Below, piece by piece: positions 16,241-46,057 of a stretch of DNA of 64,000 nt. The notes beneath the pieces are model-generated. The model was not told where the DNA came from. It saw only the letters and a list, made by a program, of their open reading frames with translations, and searched no databases. Within the stretch, counting starts at the first letter, position 1, and the number at the start of each line of letters is the position of its first letter. Made by a program: the position numbers and the translations under genes. Source of the DNA: Meiothermus sp. (GTDB lineage: Bacteria; Deinococcota; Deinococci; Deinococcales; Thermaceae); the NCBI RefSeq assembly GCF_026004075.1, contig NZ_BPIK01000002.1, positions 310,001 to 374,000 on the forward strand, read 5' to 3'.

Positions 16241-16310
16241 ACTTGATTCTAACAGCAAAACTAGCCGCTCGAGCCCCCGGAAGTGTCAGAATCCCGAGTC
16301 TGATTGTCAA
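16241..16310 (-). promoter_or_regulatory. CRISPR leader and candidate pre-crRNA promoter, mostly inside cas2
   Basis: Only 20 bp separate the cas2 stop codon (16261) from the first repeat. On the minus strand TTGACA (16310-16305), a 17-nt spacer and GACACT (16287-16282) form a plausible promoter with a start near 16275, all within the last codons of cas2. A short inverted repeat TCAGA-N8-TCTGA lies between the boxes. A TAGAAT word sits 5 bp before the first repeat. The assignment is an inference. Confidence 0.45.
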
Positions 16311-17557: not shown

Positions 17558-17560
17558 GGC

Positions 17561-20197: not shown

Positions 20198-20796
20198 AGC
20201 TCTTCTCCTTCCTGGTTCTCATCGTCTTGCGATTGCTCATCAAGGTTGCGGTAGTTAAGGGCACGGTAATACTGGCGTGACCAGCGATCTTTGGTGGCTT
20301 CGTTCCAATGCTCTAGGTCTTTGAGCAGGCTGGCCCAGTCAATCTTTTTTTCCTTGAGCAGCCGCGACCATTGGCGCAGAACATACCCCAGTTCCTCGCG
20401 CTCACAGTCCAATAGGTATAAAAAACGTTTCTCGAGGCTGCTAATCTTATCTGAGTCTTCGCTGTCTCTGCGTTTATCTTTTGTGACTTCACCTGCGGCT
20501 TTGGCAAAACTGGTTTCGGGCCAGTCATCGTCCGCGGCAAGTGCTGCAAAGTCGTCACTTTCGGGGCCGGTGTAGCGCTGGGCATATAAGCCTGCTACCC
20601 AATAACGACAGAAGTTTTGCCAATCCTTACCCTCTTCGATATACCGGATAAGATGGCGCGTAGCTTGGGGCGGGTACTTGGCCTGCTTGGATAGATATAC
20701 ATCTGCGGATTCTCGCAGCGTCATGCGCAAGCCCGCCCTAGCACTCCGCTCCTTTCGGCTCAACTCTCGAATAAAACCTCTGTACATTTCACTCAT
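20194..20796 (-). CDS. cse2: Cascade small subunit Cse2 (CasB)
   Basis: Cse2 dimers stabilise the R-loop by holding the displaced strand. The 200-residue all-helical protein contains RHLIRYIEEGKDWQNFCRYW and FLYLLDCEREELGYVLRQW, typical of Cse2, and ends in an acidic tail. It overlaps cse1 and cas7e by 4 bp each. Confidence 0.92.
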   Translation of the reverse strand: MSEMYRGFIRELSRKERSARAGLRMTLRESADVYLSKQAKYPPQATRHLIRYIEEGKDWQNFCRYWVAGLYAQRYTGPESDDFAALAADDDWPETSFAKAAGEVTKDKRRDSEDSDKISSLEKRFLYLLDCEREELGYVLRQWSRLLKEKKIDWASLLKDLEHWNEATKDRWSRQYYRALNYRNLDEQSQDDENQEGEEL

Positions 20797-22328
20797 GTTT
20801 TCACCTCCTGGGTCTTTAGGCCCAAAGTTAACAGCTCACGATGCAGCTTATCCTCACCCATTAGCACAGCGCGGCGCTCGAGGGCGCTATTCCCAATCGC
20901 CCGACGTGTAAGGTTGTAAGCCTGCCAAGCGGTATCAACCAAATTCTGAGTCCACTCGCGGTAGGGAACCTCTGGATCATCGGCTCTGCCTAGGCCGCTT
21001 AGAAAATGGGTAAACTCAACCTCGAGGCGAGACCAGTACACCCGCATTAGTGGTAAGTTATCCAGTACATCACCAGCCAATTCAGCATCGGAAAGCTCGC
21101 GGGCAAGAACGTAACCTGCTCCACGCAAGGCTTTTCCAATGTCCTCAGCTAATTGAGTGGCCTGTCCAATCTTGATGCGCTTCTGCTCATCAGCCAAGAC
21201 GCTTAGCGGCAGTGGGTATACCTCATTGTTCCAAGCATCCACTACGGGTTTACCTGGACGGGCTACCTGACCCAAAATTTGCAGCCGCAACTCCCCTCGA
21301 GGCACTAGGTATGGCCTAAGTTCGTCATGGTTGACTTGTCGTAAAATCTGGGGCATCAAGTCTGCGTTAGGTGGAACCAGCGCCTGAAAATCCCTCCAGA
21401 AAGCCTTTTCGAGCGAAAACCTAACAGGTATCCGATCAGCATCCCCCTTTCTGGGTTTTTGGTAGGCTAGAGCAGGGTCTCGAAACACTCCCTTGGCTTG
21501 GAACCCTGAGGTATACATGATGGTTCTGACCAACCCATCCTCGGGAATCAGGCGAATTGCGCGGCTCTGCCAGGTATATAACCGCACCGGGCACACGTCC
21601 CCCTGGAGTGAACGGACTTGACCTTTTTGCAAAGTCTCGTAGGTAACCGCGGGTTCTTCCCAAGAGGGGGTGTCTTCCTCAACATCTTCTTCGTCCGTGT
21701 ACCAAACCAGATTGGCAACTAGAGTCTGGAAAAGGTTCTCTCCCAAGACAAATACCAAAGCCCCACGAGGCGATGGGGCATCGGTGAAGTTCATCAGACC
21801 ACCACCCGCCACCCCGCCACACAGCGAAAATGCCTGATGCGCCACCAACCACCGCGCTGCTTCGGCATAACTTATGGCTGGGGGCTGGTCATCAAGGGAA
21901 TGATCAAACAAGGCCTTGTTGTTGCCACTCGAGCGCTCCACCGCCAGCTTGGCAATTGAGGTGCTTTTCAGCTTGAGGTCACCCACCTGAAAGAACGGCT
22001 CGGGGCCAAATAAGAAAAAACGCGAGGAGTATTTCTCGAGATATTGCTCCACAGCAGGCGAGAAGCACCCTTGCTCGAGCAATCGCTGCACATCCGATAG
22101 GCCGAGCGGCCCCTGTATGGCGCGATGCACAATCGCCAACAAAAGCCGGTACAGCGAAGCCACCACCAACGGACTGGCATCCTCAACCGCTCGAAGTTGG
22201 CGCGCACGCCTAAACAGCTCGCTAAGACCGACCATGTCAGGCTTCCCGTCCAAGGTGCGAACAAGAATCCAGCGCTCTTGGATTAAGTCAAACTCATGTT
22301 CTTGCAAAATGACCTCCTCGCATCTCAT
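20793..22328 (-). CDS. cse1: Cascade large subunit Cas8e (Cse1/CasA)
   Basis: Cse1 recognises the PAM and recruits Cas3. The 511-residue protein has the N-terminal FDLIQERWILVRTLDGKPDM, the conserved FFLFGPEPFFQV segment and a long helical C-terminal four-helix bundle (AGDVLDNLPLMRVYWSRLEV onwards). Size matches the ~500-residue Thermus homologue. It overlaps cas3 by 4 bp. Confidence 0.95.
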   Translation of the reverse strand: MRCEEVILQEHEFDLIQERWILVRTLDGKPDMVGLSELFRRARQLRAVEDASPLVVASLYRLLLAIVHRAIQGPLGLSDVQRLLEQGCFSPAVEQYLEKYSSRFFLFGPEPFFQVGDLKLKSTSIAKLAVERSSGNNKALFDHSLDDQPPAISYAEAARWLVAHQAFSLCGGVAGGGLMNFTDAPSPRGALVFVLGENLFQTLVANLVWYTDEEDVEEDTPSWEEPAVTYETLQKGQVRSLQGDVCPVRLYTWQSRAIRLIPEDGLVRTIMYTSGFQAKGVFRDPALAYQKPRKGDADRIPVRFSLEKAFWRDFQALVPPNADLMPQILRQVNHDELRPYLVPRGELRLQILGQVARPGKPVVDAWNNEVYPLPLSVLADEQKRIKIGQATQLAEDIGKALRGAGYVLARELSDAELAGDVLDNLPLMRVYWSRLEVEFTHFLSGLGRADDPEVPYREWTQNLVDTAWQAYNLTRRAIGNSALERRAVLMGEDKLHRELLTLGLKTQEVKT

Positions 22329-25021
22329 CTGCGTTCGTAAACCACACCCAGTTCATCATCAAGCCTCACCTCGAGTTGGCCGATCACACACCTTTTGTCT
22401 TCGAGCTCCAACACCCGCACATGCCGCAGCAATGCACTCTCCTTCCAACTTACTATGGGTTTATCCGCCAAATAATCGAATATTTCACGGTTGCTTAACA
22501 CCACAGCGGTTCGAAGCAGTTCCTTTGCGTGGGCAAAAGTGGGCTCTTCCTCTAATGAAACCCGCACGCCCTGGAGGCTATAAAGTTTTCCCTCACGTCG
22601 CTCTAGCAACACTACAGTCACGCTGGGCTCGCCCAGACGGGTTACTGCCCGGAAGTTCTTGTTCAGTTGGGGGTTTTCATCATCGATTTTTCGGTCGTCA
22701 TCTGGCACATGTTCAAAAAAACGCTCAGGCCGGATGAGGGCGCTATCTTTCGCCAGTCTGCGTTCTTTTTTTCGGTCTTCCTCGAGTTTTTCCATTGCCG
22801 CAGATAGGTCTTGCTCGAAGTCTGGCCCAAAACTGCCCTCGAGTTTTCCTTTGCCGTAAACCTTCTCGATCAGAGAGTGTTCTCCCTGCAAGTCATGGGG
22901 TAGGCTCAGCATCGCACCGGTGTTTAGGCGATGCCGCAAAACCGCCCAGGTTCGCAAAAGCGTTGCTCGGTCGTAGACCATGTGCCAGTAATAGAGGGTC
23001 AGGTCTAGGCTCGAGTAATCCTCAGCTAGACCTGACACATACAAAATAGGCTTAGCGTGGCTACCACGCAGAGTTCGCTCAAAAGCCTTGGGATCGTTAT
23101 GGCGGTGCAAACGGCCCGCTCGTTGCAGGAGTAGATCTATGGGGCACAAATCGCTGACCAGGACATCAAAATCGGCATCTATAGATTGTTCAAGGGTTTG
23201 CGTCGCGATTACGATGCTCCTTCGCAAGGCTTTATTGTCTTTACCTAAATGATCAATAACCCAATCCTCAATCTCCTTACGCTGGTGTGCGGGGAATCGG
23301 GCGTGAAAAAGCTTCAACGTGGGTTTTTCGCTTTGTTCTGACAACCTAGCTTGTACCGCCTTATACAACGCTTGTGCCCGACTAACCGTGTTGACAATAC
23401 AACCTATAGCCCCTCCACCCTGGCTCAACTCAACAAGTTTCTTAGCCAGCCCTTCCACTTCTAGTGGAGCAGGCTGAATGGAGTATTTCAGGGCTCGGGT
23501 CTCGAGACCCACAACCACCGCTTTCCCTTTGTCAGCCTTTGTAATTCGGGGGTATGGTGCATCTTCTTGAGGAATCTCACTATCCCAAGCTTTTAGCAGC
23601 CTGTGACGAACCTGCTCCGGCAAGGTGGCCGATAAAAGAATCACACTGCTATTCATGGCTTTGAGCCAAGCCAGCAGACGCTCAATCAAAGTTGAAGTGT
23701 AGAGTTCGTATGCATGAACTTCATCCAAAATTACAACTCGATTACCCAAACCCCACAATCGCACAAAGTGGTGTCCAACATTCAAAATACTCAACAGTGT
23801 TTGGTCTACAGTACCCACAGCGTGAGGAGACAGCAACCCGTGTTTGCGGTGGCTAAACCACTCATGCGCAACAACGCTTTGCTCATGTTGAGCTTCTTCT
23901 CCAATCTGCAAACGCATTTCCTCAAACCTTTTGTCGAGTAGAGCTGCCCCATGAATGAGTTGCAAGTCGGGGGGTCTGGTATATCCCAACTTACTCAAAT
24001 ATTTTTTCCCTACCCGCTCGAACATTGCATTCCCCGTGGCTTGCGTAGGGAGTGCCACGTAAAAACCGCGATGACCAACTTGGTTCTGAAGCATTAGACT
24101 CGCATATAACGCTGCTTCGGTCTTACCCGAACCCATCTGGTCTTCGATCAAAAGCAAAGTTGGCTGACTTTGGTTGCTAAGCAATTTCTGGGTATGGCCT
24201 TGCAATGGGCGTGGCGGGAAGCCAAAAAGGTCTTGAAAACCGATTGTGCATTTTTCCATTTGGGGCCATCCAATATCCTCGAGAGCTTGTCTAGCACAGT
24301 CCAAAGCCTCTCCATAAAAAGCCGCCAAATCCGTAGTTTGACGCTCGAACTTGAACCAGCGGATGTTGGAGCCAATCCAATCTGCAAAGCTGACCAGGCC
24401 TGCCAAGCGCATAAAAGCTTGTCCTGATAATTCAGCCCCCCTTGGAGGAGGATATTTCGATGCCTGAGTAAGGTCTAATACTTGCTTCAGAAGCCAGTGT
24501 TGTGCTTCTTCCCACAAACCTGAGCCTTTTCGCAACCGAGCATCGCGCTTTTCTTTCCCATCCGCTCTAAACCCGTGGTGCGCCCCTAGTGCATCAGCAA
24601 TTTGACAGGCAGCTTTCTTAGGAATCTTCAAGACAACGAGCAATTCCTCAAGTAAGATTTGGCTCACCACCCCGTGTCCTGCAGCTTTACCCTGTACCTC
24701 TGATTCTTCCCATTCAAAGCCACCTTGCTCCAAAAGCTCTTTCCCTCGTTCACGCCCATTGCGCTTCCACTGCAATTGAAAGGCGGGAAAGGCTTTTCCA
24801 AGGTCGTGCAAACCACCCAGTGCTGCCAACCAGGGGATAACAGCGTCGGGCTCGAGACCCAAATCCTCAGCATAGAGTTTTCTTAGTTCCAATCCTTCAC
24901 GCTCGAGGATAGCTTGTACACAAGCTGCAACATCGAGTAAGTGGGCAACAAGTGGCAGATGCAAGCCGTCGGTTCGCCCTCTATCGCTCTTGGCCCACAA
25001 AAACCTGGCGGGTTCATTCAT
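22325..25021 (-). CDS. cas3: CRISPR helicase-nuclease Cas3 (type I)
   Basis: Cas3 nicks and degrades Cascade-bound DNA. Residues 20-260 form the HD nuclease (HLPLVAHLLD, then GGLHDLGKAF with the HD pair at 72-73). A superfamily 2 helicase follows, with Walker A MGSGKTEAAL near 297, the DEVH box near 433, SATLP, and late helicase motifs QTLEQSIDADFD and QRAGRLHR. Full length, 898 residues, with no disruption. It starts 3 bp after the WYL regulator and ends in an ATGA overlap with cse1. Confidence 0.97.
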   Translation of the reverse strand: MNEPARFLWAKSDRGRTDGLHLPLVAHLLDVAACVQAILEREGLELRKLYAEDLGLEPDAVIPWLAALGGLHDLGKAFPAFQLQWKRNGRERGKELLEQGGFEWEESEVQGKAAGHGVVSQILLEELLVVLKIPKKAACQIADALGAHHGFRADGKEKRDARLRKGSGLWEEAQHWLLKQVLDLTQASKYPPPRGAELSGQAFMRLAGLVSFADWIGSNIRWFKFERQTTDLAAFYGEALDCARQALEDIGWPQMEKCTIGFQDLFGFPPRPLQGHTQKLLSNQSQPTLLLIEDQMGSGKTEAALYASLMLQNQVGHRGFYVALPTQATGNAMFERVGKKYLSKLGYTRPPDLQLIHGAALLDKRFEEMRLQIGEEAQHEQSVVAHEWFSHRKHGLLSPHAVGTVDQTLLSILNVGHHFVRLWGLGNRVVILDEVHAYELYTSTLIERLLAWLKAMNSSVILLSATLPEQVRHRLLKAWDSEIPQEDAPYPRITKADKGKAVVVGLETRALKYSIQPAPLEVEGLAKKLVELSQGGGAIGCIVNTVSRAQALYKAVQARLSEQSEKPTLKLFHARFPAHQRKEIEDWVIDHLGKDNKALRRSIVIATQTLEQSIDADFDVLVSDLCPIDLLLQRAGRLHRHNDPKAFERTLRGSHAKPILYVSGLAEDYSSLDLTLYYWHMVYDRATLLRTWAVLRHRLNTGAMLSLPHDLQGEHSLIEKVYGKGKLEGSFGPDFEQDLSAAMEKLEEDRKKERRLAKDSALIRPERFFEHVPDDDRKIDDENPQLNKNFRAVTRLGEPSVTVVLLERREGKLYSLQGVRVSLEEEPTFAHAKELLRTAVVLSNREIFDYLADKPIVSWKESALLRHVRVLELEDKRCVIGQLEVRLDDELGVVYERR

Positions 25022-25024
25022 AGG

Positions 25025-26020
25025 CTATTCTCCCAAAGCCGCCACCTGCCGCGCCTCCGAAAGCCACCGCTGCCGCAGGCGGGCCGGTTCCAACACCTCC
25101 ACCCGAGGCCCCCAGCTCTGCACCCAGGACAAAAGCTCCAGGGGGAAGTTGTCGTTGTCGGTGCCCACGGTAATACAAACCTCGAGGCCCCCGTCGGGGA
25201 GCCTCGAGGCAATACGCAGGTTGGGGTAGCCGCCCTCCAAGATGCGGTAGGCGGCCTCGGGGCGGAAGCGAAGCCGAACCTCCACCGGCACACCGCCGCT
25301 GCTGCCCACCACCCCCCAGGCATTGGAGAGGTAGTGGCGGGGGTCGAAGTCCGGCGGGATGGTGTAGGCCCCCGGCTCGCCCACCGCCCGCACCCGGCGC
25401 ATCCGGCTCAGCTTGTAGGTGCGCAGGGCCTGGTGGTAGCCGCGCTCGAGGCCAATCACATACATCCCCAGGTTGGTGCGGGCCACCTCGAGAAAGTAGA
25501 CCTCGAGCACATTTTTGCGCGGGCGGCCCGAGCCCCCGGGCTTGAGGTAGTCGAACTCGATACGCTGGCGCTTGAACCAGGCCTCGGCCACCACGGCCAT
25601 GGCCTGCCCTTCATCGCGGTGCTGCAGGGTACGGCGCTCGAGGTCTTCGGTGCTCTTGAGCGCCAGCTCCTGGGCCGGGGAGGGCAGCCGCCGGGCCAGT
25701 TTTTTGAGGGCCGATAGGTAGGTGGGTTCGTAGCCGGGGGTGTGGTGGTAGAGCATCCGCAGGGCGCTGTGCGTGACCAGGGCCTCCACCGGGCTCAGCT
25801 CGTGGCTTTGCAGCAACTGATACTGTGGGGAACGCCCCACCCTGCCCACCTCCACCGCCTGTAAGTCCTCGAGCAGGTAGCGCAGGGCCGTGCGCTTATG
25901 CACCCCCAGCACCTGGGCCAGCTCATGGGCCGTGTAGGGCCGGGCCGCCAGCAGGTCGCGAACCTCTACCAAACGCAGCGCCTTTCTGTAGTCGGCACTT
26001 TCTCGGCGTAGTTGACCCAT
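25025..26020 (-). CDS. HTH-WYL transcriptional regulator heading the cas operon
   Basis: Residues 20-75 form a winged helix-turn-helix (ARPYTAHELAQVLGVHKRTA, then LRYLLEDLQAVEVGRVGRSP). The middle holds a WYL-type ligand domain (RQRIEFDYLKPGGSGRP, NLGMYVIGLERGYHQALRTY) and the end a WCX-like part. WYL proteins often bind nucleotides or nucleic acid ends and regulate defence systems. Here the gene is 3 bp upstream of cas3 on the same strand, so it is the promoter-proximal gene of the operon and a likely autoregulator. Whether it represses or activates cannot be told. Confidence 0.88.
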   Translation of the reverse strand: MGQLRRESADYRKALRLVEVRDLLAARPYTAHELAQVLGVHKRTALRYLLEDLQAVEVGRVGRSPQYQLLQSHELSPVEALVTHSALRMLYHHTPGYEPTYLSALKKLARRLPSPAQELALKSTEDLERRTLQHRDEGQAMAVVAEAWFKRQRIEFDYLKPGGSGRPRKNVLEVYFLEVARTNLGMYVIGLERGYHQALRTYKLSRMRRVRAVGEPGAYTIPPDFDPRHYLSNAWGVVGSSGGVPVEVRLRFRPEAAYRILEGGYPNLRIASRLPDGGLEVCITVGTDNDNFPLELLSWVQSWGPRVEVLEPARLRQRWLSEARQVAALGE

Positions 26021-34966: not shown

Positions 34967-35863
34967 TCAATCTCGAGCCCGAATCTGGGCCACCACCCAC
35001 CGCATGGCGTCGCTGCCCTGGGCGGTAACGCTGCTGTGATCCTCGCGGGACTGGAAGCGGAATAGGCGGGTTTTGGAGCCGTCGAGCCGGTAGTCGGGGT
35101 CGTCGTCGTGGATGAAGTTGACCGGGGCCAGGTTGAGCGGGCTGCGGCTCACCACCTCGAGGCCCACTCCCACGTTGGGCGGCACCACATCGTTGAGATC
35201 CTGTTTGGCCGGCAGACCCGGCACCGCCACCACCTTGCAGGGGCCGCCGCCTTCATCTTCGTTGAGCGGGAAGGGGCGGCGCAACCCGCGGGCATCGTAG
35301 TAATCCTGAATGATGCGGTTGTTGCGCATATTATCGGTGTCCCAGAAGCTACAGATGGCGTCCAGGTAAATGAAATAATCGAAGCGCACCTCGGGGTGGT
35401 TCCAGGCCAGCAGGCTGGCCCAGACCGTGCCGTGGGAGTGGGCCAGCAGCACCACCCGCGTAGGGTTCTCGAAGCCCCGGATCCAGTACTCGTAGACCCG
35501 CTTTAGGTACCCCTCGGCCTCGAGGTAGCCCGGCTCCTGCTGCCTGGAGATGCCGCTGGTGTGGGCGTACAGGAAGGCCGAAACGTCGAAGTACTCCACG
35601 CTATAGCCCAGTTCACGAAAAACCCCGACCACCGTCTGGGCGGTCTGGCGGGGGGTGGTGCTACGGGGAAAGACTTCGTCGTCGAGGTAGCCATAGTTGT
35701 CGAAGGGCGGGTTGCAGCCATCCCCCACCACCGGCAGCGAAGCGCAACGCCCCGAAAAACCCATCACCACTACATCGGGGCTGCCTGCCGGTCGCAGGTT
35801 GCGCTGCGACGGGGCGGGCAGGCAGGCGGCCAGCAGCACTACCAGCCAGAGCAGGCGCCTCAT
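34967..35863 (-). CDS. Secreted lipoprotein with alpha/beta-hydrolase (lipase-like) features
   Basis: The 298-residue precursor has a lipoprotein signal (MRRLLWLVVLLAACLPAP, lipobox LAAC). The mature part has a nucleophile elbow LLAHSHGTVWASL (G/A-H-S-x-G) and a candidate late His in SREDHSSVTAQ. ATG 35863 follows TAACCT by 7 nt. It is divergent from the GH13_18 gene. Substrate unknown. Confidence 0.75.
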   Translation of the reverse strand: MRRLLWLVVLLAACLPAPSQRNLRPAGSPDVVVMGFSGRCASLPVVGDGCNPPFDNYGYLDDEVFPRSTTPRQTAQTVVGVFRELGYSVEYFDVSAFLYAHTSGISRQQEPGYLEAEGYLKRVYEYWIRGFENPTRVVLLAHSHGTVWASLLAWNHPEVRFDYFIYLDAICSFWDTDNMRNNRIIQDYYDARGLRRPFPLNEDEGGGPCKVVAVPGLPAKQDLNDVVPPNVGVGLEVVSRSPLNLAPVNFIHDDDPDYRLDGSKTRLFRFQSREDHSSVTAQGSDAMRWVVAQIRARD

Positions 35864-35959: not shown

Positions 35960-37618
35960 ATGACCGCGCACGTGAAGCTGAAAGACCACCTCGAGTTCCT
36001 CTACCCCGGTCGGGGCCAGGAAGTGCTGGGGCAGCTCATGGCCCTGCTCGAGCGCTACCCCGACCTGGCCCGGCCCCACCCCACCCCCCCCTGGAGCGAG
36101 CAGGACGCCTTCCTGATCACCTACCCCGACCAGATCACCCAGGCCGGCGAACCCCCCCTGCAAACCCTGCACCGCTTCCTGCGCCAGCACCTCCAGGGGG
36201 CCTTCTCCGGGGTGCACATCCTGCCCTTTTATCCCTACACCTCCGACGATGGCTTCAGCGTGGTGGACTTCAAGCAGGTCAAGCCCGAGTGGGGCACCTG
36301 GGAGGATATCCAGGCCATCGCAGCGGATTTCCGGCTGATGGCCGATCTGGTGTGTAACCACGTCTCGGCCTCGAGCCCCTGGTTCCAGGCTTTCTTAAAG
36401 GGCGACCCCAGGTACCAGAACTACTTCATCACCGTGGAGCCCGGCACCGACCTCTCGCAGGTCTTCCGGCCCCGCGCCCTGCCCCTCCTCACCCCCTTCC
36501 AGACCCAGAGCGGCGAGAAGCTGGTCTGGACGACCTTCTCCACTGACCAGATTGACCTCAATTTCGCCCACCCCGAGGTGCTGTTGGAGGTAATAGACGC
36601 CCTGCTGCACTACGTGCACAACGGAGCACAGCTCATCCGGCTCGATGCGGTGGGCTTTATCTGGAAGGTGATCGGGACAAGCTGCATACACCTGGAAGGG
36701 GCCCACCGCATTGTCAAGCTGATGCGGCTGGTGCTGGATATAAAAGCCCCCCAGGTGGTGCTGGTTACCGAGACCAACGTACCGCACCAGGACAACATCG
36801 CGTATTTCGGCAACGGCCACGACGAGGCCCAGATGGTCTACCAGTTCCCGCTGCCCCCTTTGGTGCTGCACACCTTCCGCACCGGCGACGCCAGCAAGCT
36901 GGCCGCCTGGGCCGCCAGCCTGAAGCCGCCCTCCGAGCGCACCACCTTCTTCAACTTCCTGGCCTCGCACGATGGGCTGGGGGTGGTGCCGGCCCACGGC
37001 ATTCTGGAGCCCGAAGAAATCGAGGCCCTCGTCCAGCAAGCCCTGGACCACGGGGGCCGGGTCAACTACAAGGACACCCCGGCGGGCCCGGTGCCCTACG
37101 AGCTGTGCCTGACCCTGTTCGATGCCCTCAATCATCCCCACGGCGACGAGGACGAAGACCTCAAGATCGCCCGCTTTCTGGCGGCCCATGCCGTTCTCCT
37201 GAGCTTGCAGGGTGTGCCGGGGGTCTACATCCACAGCCTCTTCGGCTCGCCCTCCGACCACGCGGGTCTGGAAGAAAGCGGGATCAACCGCCGCCTCAAC
37301 CGACACAAGTTCACCGGGCCGGAGCTGGCTGGGCTGCTCTCCAACCCTCATTCGCGCGCCCACAAGGTGCTGGCCCGCTTCAGCCACCTGCTCAAGGTGC
37401 GGGCTTCTCACCCGGCCTTCCACCCCAACGCGCCCCAGACCGTCATGGCCTCGAGGGAGGTGCTGCGCATCATCCGGGGCTACCGCGACCGGCAGGTGGG
37501 GTGCTACATCAACGTGACCAACCGGCCCCAGCCCATCCGGCGGGTGGGGCGCGACCTAATCAGCGGCAAATACTTCGCCGGCAGTCTGCCGCCCTACGGA
37601 GTGGTGTGGCTGGTTTGA
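35960..37618 (+). CDS. GH13_18 phosphorylase, probably glucosylglycerate (or sucrose) phosphorylase
   Basis: Retaining phosphorylase of 552 residues. The nucleophile is Asp229 (LIRLDAVGFIWK), the acid/base Glu271 (VLVTETNVPH), and the stabilising Asp338 (FLASHDGLG). Sucrose phosphorylases and the related glucosylglycerate phosphorylases share this fold; one GH13_18 enzyme of Meiothermus silvanus was shown to use glucosylglycerate, as does E. coli YcjM. The VGFIWKVIGTSCIH stretch resembles the latter group more than Bifidobacterium sucrose phosphorylase. The ATG at 35960 is preceded by GAGGAGCG. It heads a carbohydrate cluster with the MDR gene 10 bp downstream. Confidence 0.82.
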   Translation: MTAHVKLKDHLEFLYPGRGQEVLGQLMALLERYPDLARPHPTPPWSEQDAFLITYPDQITQAGEPPLQTLHRFLRQHLQGAFSGVHILPFYPYTSDDGFSVVDFKQVKPEWGTWEDIQAIAADFRLMADLVCNHVSASSPWFQAFLKGDPRYQNYFITVEPGTDLSQVFRPRALPLLTPFQTQSGEKLVWTTFSTDQIDLNFAHPEVLLEVIDALLHYVHNGAQLIRLDAVGFIWKVIGTSCIHLEGAHRIVKLMRLVLDIKAPQVVLVTETNVPHQDNIAYFGNGHDEAQMVYQFPLPPLVLHTFRTGDASKLAAWAASLKPPSERTTFFNFLASHDGLGVVPAHGILEPEEIEALVQQALDHGGRVNYKDTPAGPVPYELCLTLFDALNHPHGDEDEDLKIARFLAAHAVLLSLQGVPGVYIHSLFGSPSDHAGLEESGINRRLNRHKFTGPELAGLLSNPHSRAHKVLARFSHLLKVRASHPAFHPNAPQTVMASREVLRIIRGYRDRQVGCYINVTNRPQPIRRVGRDLISGKYFAGSLPPYGVVWLV

Positions 37619-37628
37619 GAAAGATGCT

Positions 37629-38687
37629 ATGGGACAACAGATGGTTTTTCCTTCACCTCGGCAGGTTGCCCTCGAGGACACCCCCGACCCGCCGCTTGGG
37701 CCCGGCGAAGTGCGGGTTCGGACGCTCTTCTCCGGCATCAGCGCCGGCACCGAGCTGACCCAGTACCGCGGCAGCAACCCCTACCTGCACAAGCGCTTCG
37801 ACCTCGAGCGGCGGCTGTTCGTGGACGACCGGCCCGGCCTGGCCTATCCGCTCAAAGGGGTGGGCTACGAGCAGGCGGGCGAGGTGGTGGAGGTGGGCCC
37901 GGAGGTCACACAGCTTCGGGTTGGACAGAGAATTTGGGGCTCCTGGGGCCACCGCAGCCCGGTGGTGCTGGCCGAATCCACAGCCGCCCCCAGGGTTTTG
38001 CCCGAGGGCACCGACCCCCGCCTGGGCATCTTTGCCCGCATCGGGGCCATCGCCCTGGGTGCGGTGCACGATGCCGAGATTCATTTAGGCGAGACGGTAG
38101 CCATTTTTGGCCTGGGCGTGGTGGGGCAGATCGCCCTGCAACTGGCCCGGTTGAGTGGGGCCCGCGTAATCGCGGTGGATGGCCTCGAGAAAAGGCTGGC
38201 CCTGGCCCGCCAGCTCGGCGCAGAACACACCCTGAACTTCCGCCAGGTCAACCCCGGCGAGGCCATCAAGGCCCTTACCCAGGGGCGCGGGGCCGATGTC
38301 AGCCTAGAGCTGAGCGGTGCGTACACCGCCCTGCACGAAGCCATCCGGGCCACCGCCTATAACTCGAGGGTTGTGGTAGCCGGCTTCTTGCAAGGCGAGG
38401 GGGTAGGCCTGCGGCTGGGAGAGGAGTTCCACCACAACCGCATCGAACTGGTCTCCTCCCAGACCCAGGGCATTGGCCCCCGCCTGGCCCACCGCTGGGA
38501 TCGCCTCCGGCAGGAGCAGACCATCATGCAACTGGCCACCCAGGGTAGGCTGCACCTGCTGCCCCTGATTACCCATACCTTCCCCTTTGCAGAGATCGGA
38601 GCCGCCTTCGCGCTGCTGGATCAACAGGCCAGTGAGGCGGTACAGGTCGTGCTGGAGTTCCCGTCAACCACACTGACCAAACCCTAA
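37629..38687 (+). CDS. MDR-superfamily dehydrogenase (YcjQ-like)
   Basis: 352 residues with an N-terminal GroES-like domain (PGEVRVRTLFSGISAGTELT) and a Rossmann domain (VAIFGLGVVGQIALQLARLSG). The GTE motif and the long loop after it resemble E. coli YcjQ, which reduces 3-keto-gulosides, rather than ordinary zinc alcohol dehydrogenases. The last residues, TTLTKP and the stop, are encoded by the end of the downstream tnpB element, so the original C-terminus may have been altered by insertion. Confidence 0.78.
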   Translation: MGQQMVFPSPRQVALEDTPDPPLGPGEVRVRTLFSGISAGTELTQYRGSNPYLHKRFDLERRLFVDDRPGLAYPLKGVGYEQAGEVVEVGPEVTQLRVGQRIWGSWGHRSPVVLAESTAAPRVLPEGTDPRLGIFARIGAIALGAVHDAEIHLGETVAIFGLGVVGQIALQLARLSGARVIAVDGLEKRLALARQLGAEHTLNFRQVNPGEAIKALTQGRGADVSLELSGAYTALHEAIRATAYNSRVVVAGFLQGEGVGLRLGEEFHHNRIELVSSQTQGIGPRLAHRWDRLRQEQTIMQLATQGRLHLLPLITHTFPFAEIGAAFALLDQQASEAVQVVLEFPSTTLTKP

Positions 38688-39809
38688 CGGGTTCCGGTCA
38701 GGGCTTGCAGGGACAGAACCATGCAGCGCACGATTCGCTTCCCCCACGTTCGGCCAGTTGACAATGGCCCGACGGCCAGTGTTGACCGCCGCGATGCGGT
38801 CGGCAAGCCCAGCGAAGCCGCAGACCACACAGGTAAAGGTGCGTTGGTTGGGTCGGTTGGCCCGCTCGGTGTGCCCGCAAACGGGGCATTCCCGAGAGGT
38901 GTTCTTTGGGTCAACAAAGACCAGGGGCACTCCCACCCGCTCCGCTTTGTACCGGAGCTTCTGCCCCAGGTCATGGAACGCCCAGCTATGCAGCGTGGAG
39001 CGCTGAGGCCGTCGAACCCTGACCCTCTGGCGAATGCCCTTGAGGTCTTCCAGGGCAATCGCCCGATTCGTGCGTTGGGCCTTCTCCACGATGCGCTTGC
39101 TGATGCGGTGGTTGAGGTCGTTGGCGAAGCGCCGTTCTTTTCCACTGAGTTGCTTCAACCTTCTCTTAGCCCCCTTGGTTCCCTTCTTCTGGAGTTTTCT
39201 TCTGAGCCTCCGGTGGCGGTGTCTGACCGAGTTGAGGTGCGCTCCCGAGTAAGTCTCGCCGTCCGAGTCGGTGGCGATGTTGACGATGCCCAGGTCAACC
39301 CCCAGCACGTCCCTGACCTCGATGGGGTCAGGCTCCTCGACGTTGACCGTGGCGAAGAGGTAGAACTCACCGCTTATGTAGGCCAGGTCGGTCTCGCCCT
39401 GCCGGGTCGCCAGCAAACGCCGCTGGTACTCCCCGCACGCGAAGGGGATGGTCTGACGACCCTCCACCGTCCAGATGGAGACCGTAGAGGCCGCGAGGTT
39501 CCAGGAGAGGATGCGGTCGTCGTAGGTGATGGCCGCCAGTTCACGGAAGGTGCGCCGGGTCTTCCTGTCCAGCTTGTAGGTATCCACCACCCGCGCGTTG
39601 GCCCGCACCACCATCTGAGCCGAAAGGCCAAAGCGTTTCTTGGTGGCGTGGTAATGGAGGTGATGCAGTGGAACCTGTTTGAACGTCTTGCTCTCCCAGG
39701 CGATGGCGGAAATGTGGTTGCAGGCCATGTTGAAGCGCCGCATGGTCTCCAGCAGGCACGCCCGCTGTTCGGGCGTGGGCCGCAGCTTGACCTTGGCGGT
39801 GAGCTTCAC
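38664..39809 (-). CDS. tnpB: TnpB-family RNA-guided nuclease
   Basis: 381 residues from a GTG start (VKLTAKVKLRPTPEQRACLL). RuvC motifs are VLGVDLGIVNIATD (Asp), IALEDLKGIR (Glu) and GLADRIAAVNTG (Asp). The zinc finger is CPVCGH...CVVCGF. The catalytic set looks intact. The guide RNA should come from the 3' end of the gene and the hairpin at 38673-38701. It overlaps the MDR gene by 24 bp on the opposite strand. Confidence 0.92.
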   Translation of the reverse strand: MKLTAKVKLRPTPEQRACLLETMRRFNMACNHISAIAWESKTFKQVPLHHLHYHATKKRFGLSAQMVVRANARVVDTYKLDRKTRRTFRELAAITYDDRILSWNLAASTVSIWTVEGRQTIPFACGEYQRRLLATRQGETDLAYISGEFYLFATVNVEEPDPIEVRDVLGVDLGIVNIATDSDGETYSGAHLNSVRHRHRRLRRKLQKKGTKGAKRRLKQLSGKERRFANDLNHRISKRIVEKAQRTNRAIALEDLKGIRQRVRVRRPQRSTLHSWAFHDLGQKLRYKAERVGVPLVFVDPKNTSRECPVCGHTERANRPNQRTFTCVVCGFAGLADRIAAVNTGRRAIVNWPNVGEANRALHGSVPASPDRNPLGFGQCG

Positions 39810-39842
39810 AAGGGTAGTTTATCAAATCTTCAATACTTGAAG
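38664..39842 (-). mobile_element. IS200/IS605-type tnpB-only element (boundaries approximate)
   Basis: A lone tnpB sits between two genes of one cluster. A hairpin at 38673-38701 (CTGACC-AA-ACCC against GGGT-CC-GGTCAG) overlaps the last tnpB codons, the usual right-end structure. At the other side are CTTCAA-TAC-TTGAAG (39828-39842), GCGCTC-TAGT-GAGCGC (39859-39874) and CCCCGACCA-TACC-TGGTCGGGG (39889-39910); which of these belongs to the element is uncertain. No tnpA is present, so mobility needs a helper. Confidence 0.7.
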
Positions 39843-39934
39843 GAGGTGAGCGGGTGCAGCGCTCTAGTGAGCGCCTGGGGCTCTACCTCCCCGACCATAC
39901 CTGGTCGGGGTCTCTCACCCCAGACCCCAATCGG

Positions 39935-40924
39935 ATGAAACCCCTCAAAACTGCCATCCTCGGCTGCGGCGGCTTCGCAAGACGCCACGCCCAGGTGCTG
40001 CAACAACTCCCCACCGAGGTTCAACTGGTTGCCTGCTGCGACCGCAACGCCTGGAAAGCCCAGGAATTATCCGCTCAGTACAGCGTCGGCCAGGCCCAAG
40101 TCTTCACCGACCATACCCGTATGCTGGAGGCCACCGACCTGGATATCCTGATCGTCTGCCTCCCCCCCTACGGCCACACCGACGAGGTAGAGCAGGCCGC
40201 CCAGCGCGGCATTCACCTGCTCATCGAGAAACCCATCGCGCTGAGCCGGGACAAGGCCTGGCAGATGGTCGAGGCCAGCGAAAAGGCCGGCATCAAAACC
40301 CAGGTGGGTTTTATGTACCGCTTCGGTGAGGCCCTGGAGTACCTGCGCACCCTGGACAGCGGCCCCATCGGTCTTTTTAGCGCCCGCTACTTCTGCAACG
40401 CGCTCCATGCCCCCTGGTGGCGCGACAAAGAAAAATCCGGGGGCCAGCTCGTCGAGCAGGTCATCCACATGTTCGACCTGATGCGCTACCTGATGGGCGA
40501 GCCGGTCACGGTCTACGCCAAGCAGGCCAACCTCTTCCACCAGCAAACCCCTGGCTACACCGTCGAGGATGTGAGCGCCACCATCGCCACCTTCCCAAAC
40601 GGCAGCCTGGGGGTCGTCTACGCCAGCAATGGGGCCATTCCAGGCCAGTGGATCAAGGACTTCAAACTGGTTGCACAGAACCTTACCGCCGAGTTTAGCG
40701 ACACCAACCAGGCCCGCTTCTTCTTCACCGCCCAGCCGGGGGTGCCCACCCAGACCATAGAGTCCAGCCGCGACCCCTACCTGGCCCAGCTCCAAGACCT
40801 CATCCAGGCCATCCGCAGCGGTGGCCCCACCCGTACCCCCCTGCGCGAAGGCGCGAAGTCGCTGGAACTTGTGCTGGCCGCTCGAGAGTCTGCCGAAAGT
40901 GGGGCCGAGGTCAGGTTGGCATGA
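39935..40924 (+). CDS. Gfo/Idh/MocA-family oxidoreductase (YcjS-like)
   Basis: 329 residues. The Rossmann opening is KTAILGCGGFARRHAQVLQQ, followed by LIEKPIAL with the catalytic Lys of the family and a C-terminal sheet domain (GGQLVEQVIHMFDLMRYLMG). Family members oxidise or reduce sugars and inositols, often at C3. In the E. coli ycj cluster a homologue (YcjS) works with an MDR enzyme and a GH13_18 phosphorylase. The start is ATG 39935. Its stop overlaps the GH36 start (ATGA). Confidence 0.88.
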   Translation: MKPLKTAILGCGGFARRHAQVLQQLPTEVQLVACCDRNAWKAQELSAQYSVGQAQVFTDHTRMLEATDLDILIVCLPPYGHTDEVEQAAQRGIHLLIEKPIALSRDKAWQMVEASEKAGIKTQVGFMYRFGEALEYLRTLDSGPIGLFSARYFCNALHAPWWRDKEKSGGQLVEQVIHMFDLMRYLMGEPVTVYAKQANLFHQQTPGYTVEDVSATIATFPNGSLGVVYASNGAIPGQWIKDFKLVAQNLTAEFSDTNQARFFFTAQPGVPTQTIESSRDPYLAQLQDLIQAIRSGGPTRTPLREGAKSLELVLAARESAESGAEVRLA

Positions 40925-42777
40925 ACCTTACCCTCAACCCCGATCAGACCCTGAACTTTCTGGGAAGCGACATCCGGCTCTTGCAGGCCCGGCCGGTGGT
41001 CAACGGGCGTTTACTCGAGATCACCTCGGCAAAGGTGGAGCAAGAGCATCCAAACCGGTGGCGGGCGCGCTACCACAGCCCGATGGGGGTCTTCTGGGTG
41101 AAGGCCTGGCGGGAGGAACCGATCTGGAAACTGAAGTTTGGATTGGATGGTTTCACCGGCAATTTCCCACTAGACTCCTTTGGGCTGCACTTTGCGCAGA
41201 TCGTGGGAGCCCAGAAATACCTGCGCCAGGGCTACCATAGCTGGGACGGGGCCGGGTATGTGGCCATGGGCGAGGCCCGCCAAACCGGCTATGCGCTCAC
41301 CCAACTGCTGGGCGCGTCTGGCACCAACAGCGTGGTTTTGGGCTTCGACCGGCACCACCGCTTCCAGCACACCTTCACCTTTGAAGACTCCTCGCTGCGC
41401 CTCGAGGTGCTGTGGGATCGAAAAAGCGCCAGGCGAATCGAGTCGGAATGCCTGCTGATCTTCGAGCAGGACGGCGTCGAAGAGGCTTTGCGCAGTTGGG
41501 CGCAGCAGGTAGCCCAGGCGGCCCCCGACCCCCCGCGTCGGCCTGCCCAGCCCATCACCGGCTGGTGCTCGTGGTACAACCTGTACGCCGCCATCAGCGA
41601 GGAGAACATCCTGGAGCACCTGCGCGGCGTGGAGAAGGTCTGCAAACGCGAACACCTGCCAATGCAGGTCTTCCAGCTCGACGACGGCTTTACCCCCGAG
41701 ATGGGCGACTGGCTCGAGGTCAAGCCTCAATTCCCCCGAGGGATTAAGCCGCTGCTGGACGAGATTCGCGCGGCGGGCTTGGTTCCGGGGCTGTGGATTG
41801 CCCCGTTCGTGGTGGGCAACCGCAGCAGGCTGTTTCAGCAGCACCCCGATTGGGTGCTGCACGAGCACAGCGGCCAGCCGCTGGTGCAGATGCGCTTTTA
41901 CGGTGAGTTCCGCTGGCACAAACGCAGCGAAGAGTACTACATCCTCGATGCAACCCATCCCCAAGCCCTCGAGTACCTGCGCAACGTTTTTCGCGTCTGG
42001 CGGCAGGACTGGGGCTGTGAATACTTCAAAACCGATTTCATGTTTTTCGGGGCCGAGTATGGCCCGGACCGCGTGGCCTACCATACCCCCGGCCTGAGCA
42101 GAATGGAGGTCTGGCACCGGGTAGCCCGGATGATTCGCGCCGAGATCGGGGATGCGCTGTGGGTGGGCTGCGGCATGCCGCTGTGGGCCTCGGTCGGGCT
42201 GGTAGACGGCAACCGTATCGGGCGCGATGTGGGGGCCGAGTGGCTGCCCGATACCTACGAACGCCTGTACGGGCTGGCCCTGCGCAACTTCGGCAACCAC
42301 CTGCTCTGGGAAGCCGACCCCGACTGCGTGCTGTTGCGCGAACGGTTCCATTACCTGAGCGAGCAGGAGCAAACCGGTCTGGCCTTGTTTTTCGGGATGA
42401 TGGGTGGGGTTCTCCTCACCAGTGACGCCCTGGACGAAATTTCCACTGAACGGCTGGCGTTGTGGCGGATGCTGCTACTCTCTGCGGGAGGTTCCTGCCG
42501 CTATCCCCTGCTGGGTTCGGACGACCGGGTGCTGGTGCAGGTCAGGGGCCATTGCCCGGCAGCGGTGCTGGCCTTCAACCTGAGCGACCAGACCGTCCAG
42601 CGCACCTACCCGCTGCACACGCTGGGCTTGCCGGCTGGGCTGGTGGGTTACGACTGGCACCGGCGCGAATGGCTACCCCAAAACGGACAACTCGCCTTTA
42701 CCCTGGGCCCCCACCAAAGCGCCCTGGTCTTTTTGAGCGATGGGCCGCTCGAGCCGCCCCCCACCCAGCTTCCGTAA
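40921..42777 (+). CDS. GH36-like glycosidase (alpha-galactosidase family)
   Basis: 618 residues. A beta-sandwich N-domain is followed by a TIM barrel. GWCSWYNLYAAISEENILEH and FQLDDGFTPEMGDWLEV are typical of clan GH-D. The nucleophile is Asp372 (YFKTDFMFFG) and the acid/base Asp436 (GNRIGRDVGAEW). It has no signal peptide, so it acts in the cytoplasm. It overlaps the Gfo/Idh gene by 4 bp. Specificity may be alpha-galactoside or a modified (3-keto or epimerised) glycoside. Confidence 0.87.
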   Translation: MNLTLNPDQTLNFLGSDIRLLQARPVVNGRLLEITSAKVEQEHPNRWRARYHSPMGVFWVKAWREEPIWKLKFGLDGFTGNFPLDSFGLHFAQIVGAQKYLRQGYHSWDGAGYVAMGEARQTGYALTQLLGASGTNSVVLGFDRHHRFQHTFTFEDSSLRLEVLWDRKSARRIESECLLIFEQDGVEEALRSWAQQVAQAAPDPPRRPAQPITGWCSWYNLYAAISEENILEHLRGVEKVCKREHLPMQVFQLDDGFTPEMGDWLEVKPQFPRGIKPLLDEIRAAGLVPGLWIAPFVVGNRSRLFQQHPDWVLHEHSGQPLVQMRFYGEFRWHKRSEEYYILDATHPQALEYLRNVFRVWRQDWGCEYFKTDFMFFGAEYGPDRVAYHTPGLSRMEVWHRVARMIRAEIGDALWVGCGMPLWASVGLVDGNRIGRDVGAEWLPDTYERLYGLALRNFGNHLLWEADPDCVLLRERFHYLSEQEQTGLALFFGMMGGVLLTSDALDEISTERLALWRMLLLSAGGSCRYPLLGSDDRVLVQVRGHCPAAVLAFNLSDQTVQRTYPLHTLGLPAGLVGYDWHRREWLPQNGQLAFTLGPHQSALVFLSDGPLEPPPTQLP

Positions 42778-42880: not shown

Positions 42881-45800
42881 CTACTTCACAAAGTTGAAGT
42901 TGGCCCGATAGGTAATGCCGTTGCTGTAGCGCACCACCACCTGGCGGCAACTCCCCGCCCAGCTCTTCTCGGTTTTCCAGGGATAGGTGTAGCGGTCCAG
43001 CAGGGGGTCGTAGCTCAGACCGCCGTTGCTGCTGGTGGGGTTGGTGCCATTTACCGCGGCAGTAGACCCACAGGGAATGGTCTCCCACTTGGGGTATCCC
43101 GGCGCAAAGATGTTGAGCCCCTGGTTGCCGCCCAGGCTAAAGATGAGCGGGATCGACTGGCCCGCATTAGCGGTGTTAAAGGCCGGGAAAGGCGCAACAG
43201 GGCCAAAGAACCACGCGCCCGGCGCAGTCAGATTCAAGCCCACCACCACCGGGTCGTGGTCAGACACCCGGTATTGATCGGGGGCGTAGAGCAGGGCTTG
43301 CAGGCTGGGGGTCTTGAAATCGGTGTTGTAATCGAGCACGCTGGGTTCGTCGGCGTTGATATGGTACTCAGCCACCCCCGATACCTGGGCATTCAGCGAG
43401 GCCGAGGCCAGCGCGTGGTCGAGGTAGCCCCACTGCCCGTCGAACACGTACGAATACGCATCGGGGCCCAGACGGGTCTCGAGCAGGTTGATAAAGCCTG
43501 CGTTCTTGAGGGCGGTAATGGGGTCTTCCTGGGCATAGGAGTTGTAGTCGCCAATCAGGAGAATGTCCGGGTCAGCAATGCCGGTGGGGTTCGTGGCCAG
43601 CCAGGCCGCTAGTTGCTGAGCGGCGTAGGTGCGCACAGCATTGCAGTTGCCCTGGCCGTCGCCCTGGTCGGGCAGGTCGCAGGCCGAACCCTTGCTCTTG
43701 AGGTGGTTCACGTTCACGATAAAAATGGCCCCGTTATCGTTTTGCTGGAAGGCCTGGGCCAGCGAGGCCCGGTTGCGCGGGGCACTGTCGCCGCCGTTGA
43801 CAAAGGCCGGGGTGTTGAGCACCGCGGTCTGTCCCACCGGGGTCACACGGGCCGGCTTGTAAATCAGGCCCACCTTGATGGCGTCGGTACCCAGGGCGTT
43901 CACCTGCCCGGTGGCCGTATCGGCATCAATAAAGGCATAGGTTCCGGGGGCGGTGGCTTCGTTGAGCTTGTTCACCAAAAAGGCAATGGCGCTATCGGGG
44001 CCGTAGCCGTCGTTCTCCATCTCGTTAAAGCCCAGCACATCCGGGTTCATGGCCAGGATGGCCGCCACCGTCTTGGGCCACTGGCGGTTGAACTCGGCCA
44101 GGGTATCGGCCCCGCGGCAGTCGGTGGGCAGGCCCCCCACCCCGTTGGTGCAGTTGTCCACGGTGTCGGGCAGGCCATCAAAGGTATTGAAGAAGTTGAG
44201 CAGGTTGAACCCCACCACCCGCAGCGTGCCCCCCACCTCAGGCGGGGTGGTCGGACGTGGGTTAGCCGCCACAAAATTGACGTACCCATTCAGGGCCCCA
44301 ATGGGCCGCACCCGGTAGGCATTCCCGCTGGCGGCATTGCCGGCCCAGGTATAGGTCATCACCCCCACGATGCCAGTCGCGGTGTCGCCCCCGCGCAGGG
44401 TGTTGCTGGCGCTCAGGGGCTGGCCGTTCCGCCCAAACAGGATGGGGTCGGGGTTCTGGTTTTGCAGGGCGTCGTCCAGGATGATGCGGTTGAGGTTGTT
44501 CTGGGCTTGCAGGGCATTGGCGGCAGCGCCAGGGGTGGTGACGTGGGTGGGCTGCTTCAGCCGCCCGCTCGAGGAGAGCACCACCTGTCCAAAGCGCCCA
44601 AGCTGGAAGTGCTCGGTTACATAAAGGGTCTGGGGCAGCCGCACCAGCATGCCCTCGTAGCGCTCGGCCTCGGTGGCCGAAGCGAAGGGCAGGGTCACGT
44701 CGGTCGGCGTGACGGTTCCGGTTCCGCACTTGGTAATGGAGGTCGCGCTAATCTGGGTCTGATCCTGGAACTCACCCGCCGTTCCCACCACCCGCACCAC
44801 ATCGCCCAGGCTCACGCTATTGTTGTTGCCGTTGAACACGAAGATGCCATCGGAGGTACTCGCATCCCCATCGCCGCTGGGGTCTTGGATGTAGAAGCCC
44901 CGCAGAGCCGGGGTGGGGCCTTCGTAATCCCCCACCACCACGCCTTTAGTCACCACATTGCCGGTAATGGCTGCCGACATGGCGCTGCCCTGAATCTGGT
45001 AGATGGGGGTATGGGGCAGGTCACAGACCGAGACCGGGTTGAAAGCAAGCTCAAAGTTGGCGGTCATGGTGTCGGGGGGGTCGAGGGTATCCACATCCGA
45101 GACCTGGGCCGCAAACACCGTAAGGGTGCAGCTCTCGCCCGAGGCAAAATCGGTGTTGGGGTTGATGACAAACTGCGTCGAGGTGGCGTTGGCCGTGACC
45201 ACCGTATCGGCCACGGTGCGGACACCACTGGTAGAGCAGGTAAGGCCAAACCACGCACCGCTCACGTTCACCGGCTTGCTAAAGGTGAGGGTCAGGTTGT
45301 CGTCGGGGTTGATGGTGCCGCCCGAGGCCGGAACTGTGGAGACCACACTGGGGGCCGACTCATTGCAAAAGTTGCGGGCCGAGGCGGTGTTGCGGGGGCT
45401 GGGGGCGGCCGCTTCAAAATCGGCTGCGTTGTTGTCGGTCTCGGTACAGCCGTTGCCCTTCCGAAGGGCTGCGGTAGTGTTGGAAAGTGTGGGGGCCGCG
45501 CCCGAGCCTTCAAAGAAATTGGCGCCGCCGTATCCCACCAGGTCCACAATCTGGGCCAACTGGGCATCGGAGCAAGGGGTGGAACCCCCGTTACAGCCCA
45601 GCGGCGTGGTGCTCGATACAAGAGCAACCTTTCCAGCCCCCGCCGCCATCGCAATCGGGGTGGAGTCCACCATATCCGGCGTGGGAAGCGGTGCGCCTGC
45701 CGTGCCCCCTGCTTGCTGCACCAGGTAGTACTGTCCAGGCTGTAGGGTCACGTTGGGCAGTTCGGTAATCTGGGTGCTGCTGGCGCCAAAATTGCCGGTT

Positions 45801-46057
45801 CCGGTCGCACTGGCGTACTGGATAGACCAGCCACTCAAAGACACCGGCGTGGTGCCGCGGTTGAACAGCTCTACAAAGTCGTGGGTATAGGGCGCTCCGC
45901 TGTTGCCACCCCCACCGTAGACCTGGCTGATCACCACCCCATTTGAAACTGCCTGGGCGCTGAGCCTGGCTTGGGGTTGCGCAGGCGGGGCCTGCGTACA
46001 CGCCGCCAGCGCGATTAAGACGAGCGATAGAACACTCACGCGTAAAGATGGCTTCAT
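42881..46057 (-). CDS. Large secreted lipoprotein, ExeM/NucH-like endonuclease/phosphatase
   Basis: 1058 residues. The signal (VLSLVLIALAACTQAPP) has lipobox LAAC. Residues ~40-230 form a lamin-tail domain (VVISQVYGGGGNSGAPYTHD), ~235-345 a Big_5-like Ig domain, ~355-470 an OB-like region, and ~615-950 an endonuclease/exonuclease/phosphatase domain (RVVGFNLLNFFNTFDGLPDT, GFNEMENDGYGP, VNVNHLKSKG, LIGDYNSYAQEDP, VSDHDPVVV). The last ~80 residues (YPWKTEKSWAGSCRQVVVRY) match a PxKF-type domain. Likely role is extracellular DNA degradation for phosphate or nucleotide scavenging. AGGAGA precedes the ATG. Confidence 0.88.
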   Translation of the reverse strand: MKPSLRVSVLSLVLIALAACTQAPPAQPQARLSAQAVSNGVVISQVYGGGGNSGAPYTHDFVELFNRGTTPVSLSGWSIQYASATGTGNFGASSTQITELPNVTLQPGQYYLVQQAGGTAGAPLPTPDMVDSTPIAMAAGAGKVALVSSTTPLGCNGGSTPCSDAQLAQIVDLVGYGGANFFEGSGAAPTLSNTTAALRKGNGCTETDNNAADFEAAAPSPRNTASARNFCNESAPSVVSTVPASGGTINPDDNLTLTFSKPVNVSGAWFGLTCSTSGVRTVADTVVTANATSTQFVINPNTDFASGESCTLTVFAAQVSDVDTLDPPDTMTANFELAFNPVSVCDLPHTPIYQIQGSAMSAAITGNVVTKGVVVGDYEGPTPALRGFYIQDPSGDGDASTSDGIFVFNGNNNSVSLGDVVRVVGTAGEFQDQTQISATSITKCGTGTVTPTDVTLPFASATEAERYEGMLVRLPQTLYVTEHFQLGRFGQVVLSSSGRLKQPTHVTTPGAAANALQAQNNLNRIILDDALQNQNPDPILFGRNGQPLSASNTLRGGDTATGIVGVMTYTWAGNAASGNAYRVRPIGALNGYVNFVAANPRPTTPPEVGGTLRVVGFNLLNFFNTFDGLPDTVDNCTNGVGGLPTDCRGADTLAEFNRQWPKTVAAILAMNPDVLGFNEMENDGYGPDSAIAFLVNKLNEATAPGTYAFIDADTATGQVNALGTDAIKVGLIYKPARVTPVGQTAVLNTPAFVNGGDSAPRNRASLAQAFQQNDNGAIFIVNVNHLKSKGSACDLPDQGDGQGNCNAVRTYAAQQLAAWLATNPTGIADPDILLIGDYNSYAQEDPITALKNAGFINLLETRLGPDAYSYVFDGQWGYLDHALASASLNAQVSGVAEYHINADEPSVLDYNTDFKTPSLQALLYAPDQYRVSDHDPVVVGLNLTAPGAWFFGPVAPFPAFNTANAGQSIPLIFSLGGNQGLNIFAPGYPKWETIPCGSTAAVNGTNPTSSNGGLSYDPLLDRYTYPWKTEKSWAGSCRQVVVRYSNGITYRANFNFVK

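Follow-up and report, generated by a model that had tools for sequence, protein, structure and literature searches.

A possible epimerase-free route from rare alpha-gulosides to alpha-galactosides at a TnpB-interrupted carbohydrate locus of Meiothermus

We analysed a stretch of 64,000 nucleotides from a Meiothermus sp. (NCBI RefSeq assembly GCF_026004075.1, contig NZ_BPIK01000002.1, positions 310,001 to 374,000 of the forward strand), hereafter the window, and in particular a row of four carbohydrate genes that may derive from an operon for a variant of the ycj pathway of E. coli. The row spans positions 35960-42777 of the plus strand and encodes, in this order, a GH13_18 phosphorylase, a dehydrogenase of the MDR family, a Gfo/Idh dehydrogenase (hereafter Gfo) and a GH36 glycosidase, with a TnpB element between MDR and Gfo. 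An earlier reading made from the sequence alone had described such a row on one strand, split by tnpB; the list of open reading frames and the domain searches bear it out, and the arrangement of the genes is well supported. The same reading had noted neither an epimerase nor an ATP-binding cassette (ABC) transporter, which is true of the locus in the window. The families of the window proteins were assigned by sequence searches of Pfam, NCBIfam and the PDB. The features of the locus are the following.

34967..35863, minus strand: lipoprotein-like gene at the upstream edge of a deletion, from the comparison of gene order with relatives.
35960..37618, plus strand: predicted GH13_18 glucosylglycerate phosphorylase (GGaP); Pfam Alpha-amylase, similarity to YcjM, TETN and PYEL motifs.
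37629..38687, plus strand: YcjQ-like MDR dehydrogenase, proposed alpha-guloside 3-dehydrogenase; Pfam ADH_zinc_N, similarity to YcjQ.
about 38663..39934, minus strand: TnpB-only insertion element, with the TnpB gene at 38664-39809; NCBIfam guided_TnpB, comparison with the empty site of L038.
39935..40924, plus strand: Gfo/Idh dehydrogenase, proposed to reduce a 3-keto sugar to an alpha-galactoside; Pfam GFO_IDH_MocA. An alternative GTG start is also open at 39854.
40921..42777, plus strand: member of a separate GH36 subfamily, proposed to cleave the epimerised glycoside as an alpha-galactosidase; Pfam Melibiase.

Comparison with the empty site at the related locus L038 places the TnpB element exactly in the ATGA overlap between the stop codon of the MDR gene and the start codon of the Gfo gene, an overlap that is the normal state, as in L038. 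Because the element sits there, the MDR gene of the window has lost its own stop, and its final 8 codons are supplied by the element. There is one copy of the element in the genome of the window (G000), and full-length copies are found in G003 and G011. Relatives or fragments of it were seen within the same genus in G001, G003, G008, G009, G010 and G011. Its guide RNA region has no match in Rfam, which identified no known RNA in the window.

We looked for the uninterrupted cluster in the genomes of relatives and found it. Three of them (L036, L038 and L041) have the order GGaP-MDR-Gfo-GH36 without insert, and a fourth (L102) has MDR-Gfo-GH36 without GGaP. In G004 and G005, which are of the same genus, the operon comprises genes for a LacI regulator, a solute-binding protein, two permeases, an ATPase, a GH63 enzyme, GGaP, MDR, Gfo and GH36; the order is identical in G022, from another genus of the family, and in G009, where only GGaP is missing. 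The GH63 protein of these operons matches a mannosylglycerate hydrolase-like Pfam domain and scores 398 bits against the model of glucosylglycerate hydrolase (GgH), whose cutoff is 550. At L034-L037 and L039 the block from LacI to GH63 stands between the lipoprotein-like gene and GGaP; these two genes are direct neighbours in the window, L032 and L033. The whole block, with regulator, importer and GH63, has evidently been lost from the latter three, and this deletion in the lineage of the window accounts for the missing transporter. An importer encoded elsewhere in the genome was looked for and gained no support, since neither the solute-binding protein nor GH63 has a match anywhere in G000. 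A search of G000 for endogenous mannosylglycerate synthesis (PF09488) found none. Cut down and interrupted by TnpB, the route may be in decay in this organism.

Kinship with the ycj genes of E. coli, as proposed by the sequence-only reading, holds for one of the dehydrogenases. YcjQ, a guloside 3-dehydrogenase, appears to be the closest characterised relative of the window's MDR protein, with 31-32% identity over the full length (153 bits), against only 72 bits for the best solved MDR; no NCBIfam equivalog of this family comes near its cutoff. The protein lacks the usual catalytic zinc-binding Cys and His, at whose positions it reads GISAGTE and GYE. Its homologues adjoin true YcjR-type epimerases, even inside the same genus, which argues that the link to ycj is real. 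A special likeness of Gfo to YcjS was not supported: identity is 30% over two thirds of the protein (74 bits, compared with 86 for the best solved Gfo), and the protein has ExxxH where YcjS has DxxxH, thus a Glu at the position of the catalytic Asp.

Curated models that rank high for the two dehydrogenases would suit the use of galactosyl-polyols, such as galactinol, from which GH36 would release galactose and inositol, the latter being then oxidised by Gfo and MDR. Inositol 2-dehydrogenase (TIGR04380, IolG) is indeed the top curated model for Gfo, and scyllo-inosose 3-dehydrogenase ranks high for MDR, but both scores lie far too low: Gfo reaches 135.6 bits against a curated cutoff of 355, and MDR 89.6 bits against one of 450. 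Since, in addition, the listed recurrent neighbours of loci with Gfo and GH36 include no other inositol-pathway gene, and the MDR homologues pair with sugar epimerases of the YcjR type, we regard this explanation as very unlikely.

The GH36 enzyme has the fold and the residues of an alpha-galactosidase. The profile of its subfamily matches the T. maritima alpha-galactosidase (TmGalA) with an E-value of 7e-101, and an AlphaFold model built from 39 sequences (pLDDT 93.7), which superseded a poor one from 6 sequences (pLDDT 57.5), has the same protein as its top PDB fold match in Foldseek (E 7e-39); the top matches include TmGalA complexes with galactose mimics. The nucleophile D372 and the acid/base D436, which align with D327 and D387 of TmGalA, are conserved together with D254, D255, K370, W292, C417 and R432. 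All 35 rows of the subfamily alignment have Asp at position 372; at position 436, 33 rows have Asp and 2 have Glu. Five further residues (R301, R331, H333, K334 and R435) are shared by most members of the subfamily and largely missing from ordinary GH36 enzymes; this cluster of Arg, Lys and His possibly forms a positively charged aglycone site, which would fit glycerate. The genome of the window also encodes a second, ordinary GH36 (G000:C2:78797-80065), 35% identical to the one studied here.

The GH13_18 protein has 47% identity (527 bits) with YcjM of E. coli, and its 194 bits against the sucrose phosphorylase model TIGR03852 do not reach the curated cutoff of 334. A TETN motif and a loop-A Glu in place of Gln mark strict 2-O-glucosylglycerate phosphorylases as opposed to sucrose phosphorylases, and the enzymes that bear them do not act on sucrose (PMC7178133). 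Both are present in the window's protein, the Glu as part of PYEL, and in related loci (T/S)ETN occurs in 22 of 22 GH13_18 proteins and the loop-A Glu in all 18 that were also examined for it. Together with the similarity to YcjM, this leads us to assign the protein as a GGaP and not as a sucrose phosphorylase, in line with the sequence-only reading.

The assignment disfavours the plain alternative offered by that reading, in which raffinose (or melibiose) is used, GH36 frees galactose, the GH13_18 enzyme phosphorolyses sucrose, and the dehydrogenases are bystanders. The alternative agrees with the alpha-galactosidase character of GH36 and with the presence of sucrose phosphorylases in GH13_18. 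Yet a phosphorylase with these motifs would be inactive on sucrose and scores too low for the sucrose phosphorylase model, this GH36 subfamily has the dehydrogenases as conserved partners, and the genome already has a separate ordinary GH36. Such a use seems to us barely probable at all.

Scanning GTDB species genomes with the MDR protein returned 80 loci in Actinomycetota, Chloroflexota, Pseudomonadota, Bacillota and Deinococcota; adding the window and six loci from relatives brings the total to 87. Among the next genes there is a YcjR-type epimerase at 35 loci, GH36 at 29, and both at none. The GH36 count includes 27 loci identified by tblastn and two divergent ones from Halanaerobium (L164, identified by Pfam, and L167, by matching position and length). 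The aligned YcjR-type proteins retain the active-site pattern of YcjR, leaving aside row L112, which was read in the wrong frame. The genomes of GH36-type loci have no strong YcjR anywhere, the best score being 148 bits versus about 250 in YcjR types; in the window the epimerase is absent from the locus, and the best match in the whole genome has 33 bits. No surveyed locus has a match to YcjT (GH65). In the MDR tree there are at least five switches between the YcjR and GH36 states, and the clade of the window neighbours YcjR-type loci of Thermaceae (L042 and L106), as a common first step would lead one to expect, so that one kind of MDR would serve both branches.

Gfo adjoins GH36 in every GH36-type locus but one, and the wider family of loci retains MDR-Gfo-GH36 over several phyla, which indicates that the gene row is not due to chance. 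The reverse test, with the GH36 alignment as query in 396 genomes of one class, produced a clear gap in scores between 10 genomes with members of the subfamily, which score from about 400 bits upward, and the remainder, which stay at about 270 or less. Six of these ten members were new, and they adjoin Gfo (6/6), MDR (5/6), GH63 (5/6) and GGaP (4/6); at 14 other GH36 loci there was neither Gfo nor MDR (0/14 each). Genes for GalK and GalT lie near five Gfo-type loci (L132, L159, L175, L176 and L177) and near none of the 35 YcjR-type loci.

Other recurrent neighbours hint at the aglycone. GGaP is present in 15 of the 29 GH36-type loci, a glycosyltransferase resembling mannosylglucosylglycerate synthase occurs at 8 loci, and the Halanaerobium loci have a glycerate kinase and a 2-hydroxyacid dehydrogenase. 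Together with GH63, these genes point to glycerate-linked substrates. The Halanaerobium loci (L164:2503-16144 and L167) are much like E. coli ycj, with permeases 43-51% identical to YcjO and YcjP; their row comprises the glycosyltransferase, GGaP, MDR, Gfo, the divergent GH36, the 2-hydroxyacid dehydrogenase and the glycerate kinase. In Geosporobacter (L157:8371-13256) the row is GGaP, MDR, YcjR-type epimerase and a similar glycosyltransferase.

Stereochemistry suggests how the two types of loci could work. In Fischer projection, gulose (RRLR) differs from galactose (RLLR) at C3 alone and from glucose (RLRR) at C3 and C4, and 3-keto-guloside and 3-keto-galactoside are one compound. In E. coli, YcjQ produces 3-keto-guloside, YcjR inverts C4, YcjS reduces the product, and the end enzymes act on alpha-glucosides. 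In the route that we propose for the window's cluster, MDR would use NAD(P)+ to oxidise an imported alpha-D-guloside at C3. As this carbon is all that sets gulose apart from galactose, the product would also be a 3-keto-alpha-galactoside, and reduction of C3 by Gfo from the opposite face would give an alpha-galactoside. With no YcjR to invert C4, the end enzyme would thus have to be an alpha-galactosidase, GH36, which would free galactose and an aglycone, most likely glycerate or glucosylglycerate; GGaP would then phosphorolyse glucosylglycerate to glucose-1-phosphate and glycerate. The loci with a YcjR-type C4 epimerase would follow the other branch, to an alpha-glucoside. This scheme would explain at once the missing epimerase, the fact that YcjR and GH36 exclude each other, and the presence of GalK and GalT beside Gfo-type loci. 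The sequence-only reading had supposed that either GH36 fills a new role or the pathway is completed elsewhere; neither would be needed, since oxidation and reduction at C3 would yield an ordinary type of GH36 substrate.

We give close to an even chance that an operon for the uptake and breakdown of glycosylglycerate-type solutes, working by an epimerase-free variant of the ycjQRS route, has left this cluster as its remnant. More tentative, and in our judgement somewhat short of even, is the general proposal that in Deinococcota, Chloroflexota, Pseudomonadota and Bacillota the MDR and Gfo/Idh enzymes change the configuration at C3 in a rare alpha-D-guloside, whose aglycone is probably glycerate or glucosylglycerate, and pass the alpha-galactoside to a dedicated GH36 subfamily. 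The sequences themselves show the enzyme families, the GGaP features, the catalytic residues of GH36, the conservation of the operon, the exclusivity of YcjR and GH36 and the loss of importer and GH63 from this genome; we infer the gulo substrate, the C3 position, the direction of flux and the glycerate aglycone. No MDR-Gfo-GH36 or gulose-galactose route was found in the open literature, and papers under subscription may differ.

Inversion of C3 without a C4 epimerase would equally convert an alpha-alloside into an alpha-glucoside, which could be the substrate of the GGaP that adjoins the MDR-Gfo pair in about half of the GH36-type loci; GH36 would then act separately, as an alpha-galactosidase that opens further glycosylglycerates to use. 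This is improbable, given that the tie of Gfo to GH36, present in nearly all of these loci, is far tighter than that to GGaP, that the closest characterised relative of MDR works on gulosides, and that GalK and GalT recur beside Gfo-type loci.

Several points weigh against the guloside-to-galactoside route. The gulo substrate depends on homology to YcjQ at 31% identity, and we know of no alpha-gulosylglycerate among natural products. Phylogenetically independent pairs, taken on well-supported branches, always side with the prediction on YcjR and GH36, yet the pairs that differ are not numerous enough for significance, and the association with GalK and GalT is weak alone (Fisher p 0.08). One dehydrogenase is missing at two loci (Gfo at L146, MDR at L225). 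Finally, some MDR-Gfo loci have other glycosidases (GH78 in L152, GH2 in L126), and the module may serve several sugars. The pair might indeed oxidise C3 of several alpha-hexosides reversibly, as happens in 3-keto-glycoside pathways, and leave the end of the pathway to whichever glycosidase the locus encodes, which would fit its association with GH2, with GH78, or with GalT-GalK and no glycosidase. We consider such a broad module rather unlikely here, because Gfo at most of these loci is distant from that of the window, whose own subfamily is mostly partnered by GH36.

Two other arrangements of the pair deserve mention. In L175 and L176 (Trueperaceae) and L132 (Actinomycetota), MDR-Gfo adjoins GalT and GalK but no recognised glycosidase, a setting that would suit the conversion of a free or intracellular rare sugar to galactose. 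In Paenibacillus (L152) the row is MDR, an AraC regulator, Gfo and a GH78-type alpha-rhamnosidase (tested with Pfam), with similar rows in L174 and L178, and may represent another use of the pair. Elsewhere in the window, a run of open reading frames at about 10500-26020 has CRISPR-repeat-like translations (GSSPRVRGI, FIPAGAGNT, VHPRGCGEY) and adjoins a minus-strand row resembling type I-E cas genes. Just downstream of the cluster, the minus strand encodes a large, probably secreted protein (42881-46057) with lamin-tail, Ig-like and endonuclease/exonuclease/phosphatase domains.

If the guloside-to-galactoside route is true, it would bring with it a GH36 subfamily and two dehydrogenase functions that are new, as well as a rare-sugar pathway present in several phyla, and alpha-gulosides or related rare glycosylglycerates would be common enough in nature to sustain two catabolic branches. 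It would also provide a simple stereochemical rule, by which a locus with the C4 epimerase would end in an enzyme for alpha-glucosides and a locus without it in one for alpha-galactosides. To our knowledge, no natural substrate has been established for the ycj pathway of E. coli, and the cluster directs attention to glycerate-linked solutes as a class of substrates.

The components of the cluster resemble known systems to different extents. GGaP (EC 2.4.1.352) is a characterised enzyme of (Allo)Meiothermus silvanus, Spirochaeta thermophila and E. coli; the window's protein shares (T/S)ETN, the loop-A Glu and the identity with YcjM given above, but its partners are MDR-Gfo-GH36 instead of synthesis genes, and no glycerate kinase adjoins it. 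The GH63 mannosylglycerate and glucosylglycerate hydrolases (MgH and GgH) have, to judge from the GgH score, a counterpart in the intact operons that is gone from the window's genome. The window's GH36 shares with TmGalA (TM1192) the fold, nucleophile, acid/base and sugar-binding residues, whereas identity in the structural alignment is about 24% and the Arg/Lys/His cluster is its subfamily's own. The closest parallel for the whole is ycjMNOPQRSTU of E. coli, with its route from guloside to glucoside, GGaP and kojibiose phosphorylase. The window shares with it GGaP, a YcjQ-like MDR and a Gfo/Idh dehydrogenase, to which the operons of relatives add an ABC sugar importer and a LacI regulator. 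In contrast, the Gfo of the window does not appear specially close to YcjS, and in place of the YcjR epimerase and of GH65 the cluster has GH36, joined by GH63 in relatives.

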